Below, piece by piece: positions 5,910 to 59,296 of a stretch of 64,000 nucleotides of DNA (positions are counted from its first letter, which is position 1; every line of letters starts with the position of its first letter). Source of the stretch: Caballeronia glathei (GTDB lineage Bacteria; Pseudomonadota; Gammaproteobacteria; Burkholderiales; Burkholderiaceae). The notes below the pieces were generated by a model, which was not told where the DNA came from, searched no databases, and saw nothing but the letters and a program-made list of their open reading frames with translations. Location: the NCBI RefSeq assembly GCF_000698595.1, contig NZ_JFHC01000016.1, forward strand, positions 1 through 64,000, in the 5' to 3' direction. The translations under genes were made by a program, and so were the position numbers.

Positions 5910-5925
5910 TACCCACGAATGGGTA
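5910..5925. promoter_or_regulatory. NarL-type 7-2-7 site upstream of purU-mgd-gmaS-mgs
   Basis: TACCCACGAATGGGTA. Read as two heptamers with a two-base gap, the left half TACCCAC matches TACYYM at six positions and the right half reverse-complements to TACCCAT, a full TACYYMT match. This is the geometry known for NarL/NarP sites. It lies about 50 bases upstream of a plausible -35 box. A NarL-like regulator is encoded at 49098-49742. Confidence 0.6.
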
Positions 5926-5966
5926 CTCATAAGGTGTTTCCTATCAGGAAAAAGAGTTTAGTGTCA

Positions 5967-5995
5967 TTGACAGCCTCTTTTCGCGTGGTTACCTT
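5967..5995 (+). promoter_or_regulatory. Candidate sigma-70 promoter for the methylamine operon
   Basis: TTGACA at 5967-5972, a 17-base spacer, then TACCTT at 5990-5995 (three of six consensus positions). The start would fall near 6001, about 32 bases before the purU ATG. The weak -10 fits a promoter that needs an activator. Confidence 0.45.
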
Positions 5996-6032
5996 GCATC
6001 AACACCTCACCAAAGACAAAGCCGAGAGCCCC

Positions 6033-6893
6033 ATGTCACCACCTCGCCGCTTTACGCTGACCCTGTCGTGTCCTGACCGCATCGGCATCGTGGCCACTGT
6101 AAGCACGTTCCTGGCCGAGCATCATGGCTGGATCATTGAAGCCTCGCACCATGCGGACGAAATCGAAAACCGCTTCTTCATGCGCCATGAGATTGCGACC
6201 GATTCGCTGTCGATCAGCATCGACCAGTTCCGCGATCGCTTCGAGCGTATCGCGCGTGAATTCCAGATGTCGTGGAAGGTTGCCGATCACTCGGTGAAGA
6301 AGCGCGTCGTGATCCTGGTGTCGAAGCTCGAACACTGTCTCTACGATTTGCTGGCGCGCTGGAAGGCGGGCGAGCTCGACATCGACATCCCGTGCGTGAT
6401 TTCGAACCATGACACGTGGCGCAGTTTCGTGGAATGGCACGGCATCCCCTTTCATCACGTGCCGGTCACGCCGGATAACAAGGAGGCGGCGTACGACGAA
6501 GTGCAGAGCCTCTTCGAAGACGCGCGTGCCGACACGATGGTGCTTGCGCGCTACATGCAGGTGCTGTCGCCGAAGCTGTGCCGCGCGTACCCGGGCCGGA
6601 TCATCAACATCCACCATTCGTTCCTGCCGAGCTTCGTCGGCGCGAAGCCGTATCACCAGGCGTATACGCGCGGCGTGAAGCTGACGGGCGCGACCTGCCA
6701 CTACGTGACAGAAGACCTCGACGAAGGTCCGATCATCGAACAGGACACGATCCGGGTGCGTCATTCCGATCGTCCGGACGATCTCGTGCGCCTTGGCCGC
6801 GACATCGAAAAGGCCGTATTGGCACGGGGTTTGCGCTACCACCTCGAAGACCGCGTGCTGATACACGGCAACAAGACGGTGGTGCTGCGCTAG
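6033..6893 (+). CDS. purU: Formyltetrahydrofolate deformylase
   Basis: A 286-residue protein that hydrolyses 10-formyl-THF to formate and THF in the cytosol. An ACT domain fills residues about 8-85 (LTLSCPDRIGIVATVSTFLAEHH) and a formyltransferase-fold catalytic domain fills about 90-280. The catalytic elements are visible: an Asn in CVISNHDTW, the His of INIHHSFLPSF and an Asp in TEDLDEGPIIEQD. The ATG at 6033 fits the family N-terminus; longer frames upstream add unrelated residues. As first gene of the methylamine operon, it probably completes THF-linked oxidation of the N-methyl carbon, releasing formate and recycling THF for the dehydrogenase downstream. Confidence 0.95.
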   Translation: MSPPRRFTLTLSCPDRIGIVATVSTFLAEHHGWIIEASHHADEIENRFFMRHEIATDSLSISIDQFRDRFERIAREFQMSWKVADHSVKKRVVILVSKLEHCLYDLLARWKAGELDIDIPCVISNHDTWRSFVEWHGIPFHHVPVTPDNKEAAYDEVQSLFEDARADTMVLARYMQVLSPKLCRAYPGRIINIHHSFLPSFVGAKPYHQAYTRGVKLTGATCHYVTEDLDEGPIIEQDTIRVRHSDRPDDLVRLGRDIEKAVLARGLRYHLEDRVLIHGNKTVVLR

Positions 6894-57904: not shown

Positions 57905-58035
57905 GGGGTGTCTCTCCTGGCTTGGGTCTTCGTAGACGATGTTCGGGTGGCTTGGGAGTCTTGCGCCGCCGGCCCGGGCTCCGGCCTGCGCTCCGCTCAA
58001 GTGGAACGGGCGCCAGGCACCGGACGGCGTGGTTG

Positions 58036-59148
58036 CTATGGCGCCACGCGCGTGCGCAGGCGCAGCGGATCGTAGAACGGCGTCTTCGTGACGACGCCGC
58101 TGAACGTGCCGGCCGGATCGCGAATCTCCACCTTCGTGCCGAGCGCGGTGTGGCTGGGCTTCAGATGCACCATGGCGAGCGACTGCATCAGGTAGCGGCT
58201 GAACGTGGCACTCGTGACGACGCCCACTTGCTCGTCGCCGATGAAGATCGGGGAACCGGCCGTGACCGCGCTTTCATGCTTGACGATCACGCCCGCCTGC
58301 TTGAAGCGCTCCTTGCCGCGCGAGGCGAGCAGCGCGGCCTTGCCCACGTAGTCGCCCTTCTTGTCGGGATCGATCATCCAGTCGAGGTTCAGTTCCCACG
58401 GCGTCGTGTCGCCTTCGGGCATGTCGAACGGGTAGAAGAGCAGGGCCGCTTCGATGCGCGCAAGTTCGAGCGAGGTCCATGAGGCGGGGACGATGCCGTG
58501 CGGCTTGCCTGCTTCGAGAATTGCATCCCAGATCGCGATGGCGTCGTCAGCGCTGCACGATACTTCGAACCCCTGTTCGCCCGAATAGCCGCCACGCGAG
58601 ATCACGATCCTGCGGCCGAAGAGTTTCGTCTCGACGTGTGCGAAGTAGGGAAGCTCGCTGAGCTTCATGCCGATGTGCGGCTGGAGAATGTCGGTTGCGC
58701 GCGGGCCCTGCAGCGAAAGCATGTGGACGTCGAAGTCCTGGCGCCACTCGACCTTGCGGCCCTCGGCGGCCTCCTTGAGCAGTTGTTGCGTGATGCCGCC
58801 GCCGTGCGAGATGCGGTAGCGCTCCGGCGCGTCGTAGATCACCATCAGGTCGTCGCAGACGGCACCGCGTGCATCGACTTCTGCCGCGAGACGCGCGGTG
58901 CCCGGCTTCATTTTCGTGACATCGATGGCGCAGATGCTGTCGATGACCGACGCCGCGTCAGGACCGGTCACGTGCAGGATGTTCAGCGCGCTGATGTCGT
59001 AGAGACCGGCTTTGGTCCGCACGGCGACCACGTCGTCGTTCGGATCGCTCGCGTAGAACCAGGGCAGCGGCATATCGTTCCAGGTATCGCCGTCAAGCTT
59101 CGAGCCGAGTTCACGATGGCGGACATTCAGAATGGATTGCCTTGTCAT
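58036..59148 (-). CDS. GcvT-family aminomethyltransferase (DmdA-like)
   Basis: A 370-residue THF-binding GcvT-fold protein ([40 protein letters not shown]). It resembles the C1-transfer domain of the Mgd/sarcosine oxidase large subunit and the DMSP demethylase. As first gene of the TMA operon, 131 bases upstream of tmd, it could trap formaldehyde released by trimethylamine dehydrogenase as methylene-THF. A role as TMAO or DMSP demethylase is the alternative; neither can be decided from sequence. The ATG at 59148 is the family start. Confidence 0.8.
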
Positions 59149-59280
59149 AGCTGTTTCCCGAGAGTGAAACCGAACGTGATGGGATGCCCGGAGCGGCCGG
59201 GCAGCGAGTGGCCTCGGATGGCCATTGGATGACAGCAAGTCTCGTTCGTAAAAATCAGCGTCACAATGGCCCAATGGCGC

Positions 59281-59296
59281 TACCTCCGAGTGGGTA
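59281..59296. promoter_or_regulatory. NarL-type 7-2-7 site between the TMA and DMA operons
   Basis: TACCTCCGAGTGGGTA: heptamers TACCTCC and (reverse) TACCCAC with a two-base gap, both matching TACYYM. It shares eleven or more identical positions with the 5910 site, including the GA spacer. It could serve either or both divergent operons. Confidence 0.55.

Follow-up and report, generated by a model that had tools for sequence, protein, structure and literature searches.

A probable NarL-type 7-2-7 operator at methylated-amine promoters of Caballeronia glathei and its proposed two-component regulator

Here we describe a 16-base inverted repeat (7-2-7 site) that occurs three times in a methylated-amine gene island of Caballeronia glathei. 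The window, by which we mean the whole stretch of DNA analysed, comprises positions 1-64000 of contig NZ_JFHC01000016.1 (C16), in a genome of 8,637,375 bases and 356 contigs. We consider it likely (probability about 0.86) that a NarL-family response regulator of the island (NarL1) and its paralogue (NarL2) use the three 16-mers as operators, with a NarX-type kinase as partner and a signal other than nitrate. Our best reading is that a NarXL-type two-component system has been redeployed from nitrate to methylated-amine catabolism, the DNA code being kept and the sensor changed. Binding, activation rather than repression, the pairing of kinase and regulator, and the signal are what we infer from the findings below.

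The initial annotation of this DNA had singled out 16-mers starting at 5910, 49001 and 59281, and all three are present there with a gap of exactly two bases. The literal IUPAC frame TACYYMNNNNRGTA and a longer variant, both of the wrong length, gave no match, and the 16-base form TACYYMY-NN-RKRRGTA, with exactly two spacer bases, was used for scanning instead. In the window, exact TACYYMYNNRKRRGTA matches are limited to the three 16-mers and no further match with one mismatch was found, in agreement with the earlier remark that the other intergenic gaps read had shown no equally good match. The first two sites had been placed before the methylamine operon and the sigma-54 activator gene, and they do precede the ATG of purU by 107 bp and that of the activator gene by 94 bp. 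The site at 59281, said to serve divergent operons for trimethylamine (TMA) and dimethylamine (DMA), is well supported in this assignment on one side, where it lies 132 bp before the ATG of the gcvT-like gene that heads the leftward gcvT-like/trimethylamine dehydrogenase (TMADH) operon. The assignment is not well supported for the rightward dmm-type open reading frame (ORF), about 355 bp off and without its own site.

Genome-wide, the exact pattern occurs five times, three of them in the window, and its reversed control once. With the two off-island sites as background (lambda 0.015 per 64 kb), the probability of three or more is about 6e-7; this value lacks independence, since the three sites and the NarL consensus served to define the pattern. 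The 57 other genomes of the genus hold 16 exact sites together, and among 398 genomes of the family, 119 of which have any such site, the most (five) are found in the genome of the window. Given this rarity in the genome, the genus and the family, the pattern therefore does not occur at equal frequency elsewhere. Both off-island exact sites, one within an isochorismatase-type ORF (C45) and one in a gap beside a TauD-type gene (C7), were rejected as regulon members for want of support.

Conservation was followed in relatives drawn from a genome scan with the regulator, from plasmid records and from family and order searches, in which orthologues were mapped by tblastn and their upstream 300 bp scanned for sites. 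Promoters were counted where the orthologue had an intact start and exceeded an identity cut of 55% (gcvT-like), 60% (activator), 75% (purU) or 60% (mgdA); the counts skip L049, L050, L217 and L218, which are the same places as L040, L042, L144 and L143. A site with at most one mismatch is present in 19 of 23 gcvT-like/TMADH operon promoters (20 of 24 rows before L076, which repeats the gcvT gene of L041, was subtracted by hand), in all 13 activator promoters and in all 10 purU-mgd-gmaS promoters. Dinucleotide shuffles of the same promoters gave such a site in 2 of 2350 cases, and the reversed pattern never did better than two mismatches in them. Upstreams of other genes, taken from the first set of mapped loci, yielded one match with at most two mismatches in 121, a NarL upstream with one. 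The gcvT promoters have nearly fixed half-sites and vary in the two spacer bases (TC, CG, CT); in the activator and purU promoters the frame is constant and the letters vary. Upstream of mgdA in Paraburkholderia there is no site, as expected inside an operon.

The two-base gap is itself a marked feature of these loci. In 1.04 Mb of amine-context loci, some of them overlapping, inverted heptamers at gap 2 gave 44 matches in 39 distinct contexts, and every other gap from 0 to 12 gave 0 to 3 matches each. An excess of direct repeats of the heptamer spaced by 7 bases (11 matches) was dropped as a candidate, since 8 of the 11 come from a single conserved stretch at the beginning of mgdA. In 13 whole genomes chosen for carrying the regulator, 24 of the 29 exact sites lie within the amine cluster (the reversed control gave 27 sites); the three exact sites of G216 are those of the purU, activator and gcvT promoters, and less clean genomes have three of seven (G468) or two of three (G784) in the cluster. 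Two plasmid records have 2/2 and 2/3 of their exact sites there. Where a gmaS cluster lacks this regulator (L149-L152), the 300 bp before gmaS contain no site in any of the four cases, the best match having four mismatches; L151 has a different response regulator. Genome-wide rarity, presence in orthologous promoters and specificity in the 13 other genomes thus support the shared regulon of methylamine operon, sigma-54 activator and TMA/DMA operon that had been proposed from the window. Of the two outcomes named beforehand as refuting it, equally frequent sites in unrelated intergenic regions and absence from orthologous promoters, neither came about.

Which protein would read this operator? 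According to the literature, NarL/NarP sites are TACYYMT heptamers (PMC4886647) and NarL uses heptamers in a 7-2-7 arrangement (PMC6152468); the island sites are likewise inverted TACYYM heptamers two bases apart, as in NarX-NarL and NarQ-NarP (PMC6152468). NarL1, whose gene stops about 80 bp from the 49001 site, has a receiver and a GerE (LuxR) DNA-binding domain and scores 272.7 bits against the NCBIfam NarL model (cut-off 250; paralogue 271.5). It thus shares the response regulator family of those systems. Among solved structures E. coli NarL is its best relative, and TVKVHVKH, which we take to be the recognition helix of that protein, is identical in both. NarL2 is encoded beyond the window end (C16:70256-70894) and is 82% identical to NarL1. 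At E <= 1e-60, the NarL1 regulator is confined to this genome among the 58 of the genus. The initial annotation named no regulator; the evidence points to NarL1 and its paralogue rather than the sigma-54 activator, the gene of which is among the predicted targets.

As a side observation, two of the 18 one-mismatch sites of the genome lie on C16, just downstream of the second narL-type gene (69617-69632 and 70173-70188, L027:6617 and L027:7173), and one-mismatch sites occur in the same region of several relatives.

Among labelled loci there are both narG/narH-linked and amine-linked NarL homologues, and many more have neither in the stretch examined (labels for L045, L051, L052 and L053 were set by hand). 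In a tree of 128 rows, a single branch with support 93/93 parts the 47 amine rows from the 21 nitrate rows, setting the regulators of amine context apart from the NarLs of narG loci. L151, counted among the amine rows, sits on a long branch and is not a close NarL.

The partner of NarL1 and NarL2 would most likely be the NarX-type kinase at C16:64314-66167, about 0.3 kb past the window end. It has HisKA_3, HATPase_c and GAF domains, a likeness to NarX-NarL and NarQ-NarP, and Pfam PilJ was not found in it. An AlphaFold2 model of the sensor (six sequences) is all helical, with a mean pLDDT of 78.6. NarQ sensor fragments make up the top six PDB matches of this model (TM 0.53-0.61). Because the E-values of these matches are weak (0.03-0.2, none <= 0.001), we regard a fold kinship of the modelled sensor with NarQ as likely rather than established.

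Unlike NarX and NarQ, the kinases of amine loci lack the P-box. This motif, A-I-N-x-A-G-S-L-R, in which G and R are invariant (100%; PMC8199190), is matched by none of 26 amine-locus kinases and by all 18 narG-locus kinases, a contrast that leaves out 51 kinases with neither label (39 with and 12 without it). Since the P-box is absent, the kinase is expected to sense a signal different from nitrate, the simplest candidate being a methylated amine or its product. For this kinase and eight near relatives, a refined joint alignment places E or D at the P-box G and keeps the R three residues further on (9/9); this detail is tentative because the first alignment had another register and a comparison of the amine and nitrate sensor groups by hhalign was not significant (probability 2-3%). 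Going by this alignment, an acidic residue at the nitrate-stacking glycine might suit positively charged methylammonium over negatively charged nitrate. That a nitrate-sensing two-component system has been converted to a methylated-amine sensor, with its DNA code kept and its ligand pocket rebuilt, is to us an even bet.

A PAS/GGDEF-type gene (C16:66166-68100, L027:3166-5100) adjoins the kinase gene, hinting at a link to cyclic di-GMP. Nearly all amine loci that have a kinase show a tblastn match to it next to the kinase gene, and distant matches (30-37%) may reflect shared domains only.

The sites could also be NarL sites under a nitrate signal, the cell's nitrate NarXL steering amine catabolism as a choice of nitrogen source or respiration. 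Sites at narG loci of other genomes do follow the same frame (seven exact sites), cross-talk is possible in a genome with narG (C18:32558-36265) and a NarXL-like pair, and a weak two-mismatch match 127 bp before the own narG match leaves some room for overlap. However, we find this explanation improbable in view of the missing P-box in 26/26 amine-locus kinases and the separation of amine-context from narG-context NarLs in the tree. In the pair that lies 4.6 to 6.5 kb beyond the own narG, the kinase has a PilJ domain and the P-box, and the regulator is only 46% identical to NarL1; the 19 kb scanned around it contain no match with at most two mismatches. Compared with the NarX-NarL and NarQ-NarP systems in general, position 7 of the heptamer is mostly C here (52 of 66 half-sites) and T in 9 of 14 at narG-locus sites, and the neighbours in the island are amine catabolic genes, not narGHJI. 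With narG and a distinct P-box-bearing pair on C18, nitrate sensing therefore seems to have its own machinery in this genome. That pair (C18:40820-43446, L032) adjoins the cellulose synthase genes bcsA/bcsB.

Each of the three sites is followed by a predicted sigma-70-like promoter with a 17-bp spacer (Table 1). In a permissive search across relatives, a TTG-type -35 stands 15 bp from the site in 14/14 activator rows and 14 bp from it in 21 of 27 gcvT rows (duplicates included), among them L014 of Cupriavidus and, from another family, L189, L204, L208 and L209; the TTGACA of the purU promoter is kept in 13/13 aligned rows. For the gcvT-like/TMADH and activator sites, the centre would thereby fall about 58 bp before the predicted start, a position that, as far as sequence can tell, suits activation. 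Close by on the upstream side of the gcvT site, at a nearly constant spacing, there is an additional half-site at 59305-59310 (GGAGTA or GAAGTA on the gcvT strand), kept in 15/15 aligned rows from 13 distinct places.

The purU promoter has a second conserved palindrome, TTTCCTATCAGGAAA, present in a single copy in the 8.64-Mb genome and exact in 8 of 10 orthologous purU promoters. The TTTCCTnnnAGGAAA palindrome may be the operator of the helix-turn-helix (HTH)-cupin protein, because an HTH-cupin gene precedes purU in those eight. This bears on whether the 16-mer itself belongs to another regulator of the island, such as the HTH-cupin protein, the sigma-54 activator or a LysR protein, an idea to which we give very little credence. 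HTH-cupin and sigma-54 activator genes do occur in the same clusters of several relatives; the motif, however, is the NarL code as published (PMC4886647, PMC6152468), and the NarL recognition helix is intact. Four loci (L015, L186, L189, L209) whose gcvT site deviates by at most one base show no sigma-54 activator match in the stretch searched, L149, L150 and L152 combine gmaS clusters and an HTH-cupin match with neither a NarL match nor a site before gmaS, and a different palindrome in the purU promoter suits a second regulator. As for the sigma-54 activator, a scan for -24/-12 elements was no better than chance (30 matches, 30.3 expected), and its targets therefore cannot be named.

Several observations weigh against assigning the three sites to NarL1 and its paralogue. 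At the level of the motif, position 7 is C in five of the six window half-sites where the E. coli consensus has T, and one genome (G679) has no exact site. As regards conservation, the gcvT site of L148 has lost one base (best three mismatches), those of L187, L204 and L208 have two mismatches, L045 has no site at <=1 mismatch, three Methylophilaceae loci (L069, L078, L079) have none before mgdA, and gcvT-like genes below 55% identity (e.g. L182, L213) fall outside the count. The gcvT promoter has a weak -10, and the -35 at 14 bp was not seen in L015, L069, L078, L184, L186 and L187 by the permissive search. Finally, no kinase gene adjoins NarL1, the nearest found being about 14.6 kb away and beyond the window, and 60 tree rows are unlabelled, 12 of them on the amine side, the own C18 regulator among them, so that a pure amine clade is not demonstrated. 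With one mismatch allowed, the genome-wide excess disappears (23 sites, 45 in the control), which speaks for a chance resemblance among GC-rich palindromes, which is next to impossible to reconcile with conservation in place, the fixed two-base gap and the cluster specificity in other genomes.

Considering all the above, the assignment to NarL1 and NarL2 suggests the following course of events. When methylated amines or their products are present, the NarX-type kinase with its altered sensor would phosphorylate NarL1/NarL2, and a dimer of the phosphorylated regulator would grip the two inverted TACYYMC heptamers. The bound dimer may then help sigma-70 RNA polymerase to start the gcvT-like/TMADH operon and the activator gene, and would act from further upstream at purU-mgd-gmaS. 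Transcription would thus be raised for TMA/DMA oxidation, for the N-methylglutamate pathway with PurU and for the sigma-54 activator.

Other regulators of methylated nitrogen compounds offer a comparison. A LuxR-family activator of dimethylformamide genes is reportedly present in Paracoccus aminophilus; the likeness would be that of a LuxR-family protein on a methylated-nitrogen pathway. TmaR, reported in 2026 from the marine Ruegeria pomeroyi, is an AraC-type master regulator of TMA catabolism (PMC13390433). As proposed here for NarL1, one regulator within the gene cluster coordinates the TMA-DMA-monomethylamine (MMA) pathway steps (PMC13390433). Unlike the AraC-type TmaR (PMC13390433), the regulator of our island would be a two-component NarL-type protein with a defined 7-2-7 operator; NarL, two-component and histidine kinase do not occur in the main text of that paper.

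The coordinates of the features are given in Table 1. Gene names such as mgd, mgs, dmm, TMADH and HODM are putative labels added to the Pfam/NCBIfam matches. Serine-cycle type genes occupy 19886-28511 (phosphoenolpyruvate carboxylase, malate-CoA ligase type, hydroxypyruvate reductase type, class V aminotransferase and serine hydroxymethyltransferase, SHMT), with a LysR gene nearby at 28769-29683. The sole match to the 7-2-7 pattern with two mismatches in the window, at 28681, lies in the SHMT/LysR gap.

Table 1. Predicted operators, promoter elements and genes of the methylated-amine island (window coordinates)
Feature	Position	Strand	Remark
7-2-7 site TACCCAC-GA-ATGGGTA	5910..5925	+	promoter of purU-mgd-gmaS-mgs operon (methylamine, N-methylglutamate pathway)
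TTTCCTATCAGGAAA palindrome	5937..5951	+	second conserved operator candidate of purU promoter, between 7-2-7 site and -35
Sigma-70 type -35 TTGACA, 17-bp spacer, -10 TACCTT of purU operon	5967..5995	+	41 bp after 5910 site
purU-like formyltetrahydrofolate deformylase	6033..6893	+	first gene of purU-mgdA-mgdC-gmaS-mgs run
mgdA-like (sarcosine oxidase beta family, DAO)	6967..8208	+	
mgdC-like (sarcosine oxidase alpha family)	8482..11445	+	
gmaS-like, type III glutamate-ammonia ligase family	12195..13538	+	623 bits, cut-off 470
mgsABC-like glutamate synthase-type genes	13396..16575	+	
GAF-AAA-Fis sigma-54 dependent activator	46879..48906	-	predicted target of 49001 site
-35 TTGCCG, 17 bp, -10 AATAAT of activator gene	48957..48985	-	15 bp downstream of 49001 site
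7-2-7 site TACTCCC-CG-GGAGGTA	49001..49016	+	between narL-type gene and sigma-54 activator gene
NarL-family response regulator (NarL1)	49098..49742	-	proposed binder of the three sites
Electron transfer flavoprotein (ETF) alpha and beta subunits	49982..51741	-	
Fe-S (CCG, 4Fe-4S) oxidoreductase subunit	53317..55479	-	
Old yellow enzyme (OYE)/trimethylamine-dehydrogenase-type flavoprotein (Oxidored_FMN + Pyr_redox_2)	55712..58000	-	
GcvT-like aminomethyltransferase	58036..59148	-	heads leftward amine operon
-35 TTGTGA, 17 bp, weak -10-like GAGACT	59238..59266	-	14 bp downstream of 59281 site
7-2-7 site TACCTCC-GA-GTGGGTA	59281..59296	+	promoter of gcvT-like/TMADH/Fe-S/ETF operon
dmm-type reductase, haem-dependent N-demethylase (HODM-like), trimethylamine N-oxide (TMAO)-permease-type transporter	59651..63526	+	no own 7-2-7 site

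Our findings also bear on annotation. Because NarL1 scores above the cut-off of the NCBIfam NarL equivalog model, annotation that relies on this model will label it as a regulator for nitrate; a protein named "NarL" by a curated model can thus belong to a different pathway. Likewise, the presence or absence of the P-box with the same DNA code offers a natural comparison for how a sensor may change its ligand without a change of the regulon code.

In the literature searched we found no description of the way in which betaproteobacteria of soil and freshwater induce the use of TMA, DMA and methylamine, and the open literature, with subscription papers mostly outside the search, yielded among the papers listed no NarL-type or two-component regulator of methylated-amine use. 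An operator, a regulator and a likely sensor can now be named, which makes the question directly testable. If our reading is true, one switch would govern the catabolism of TMA, DMA and MMA in several betaproteobacterial families, and possibly in Paracoccus.

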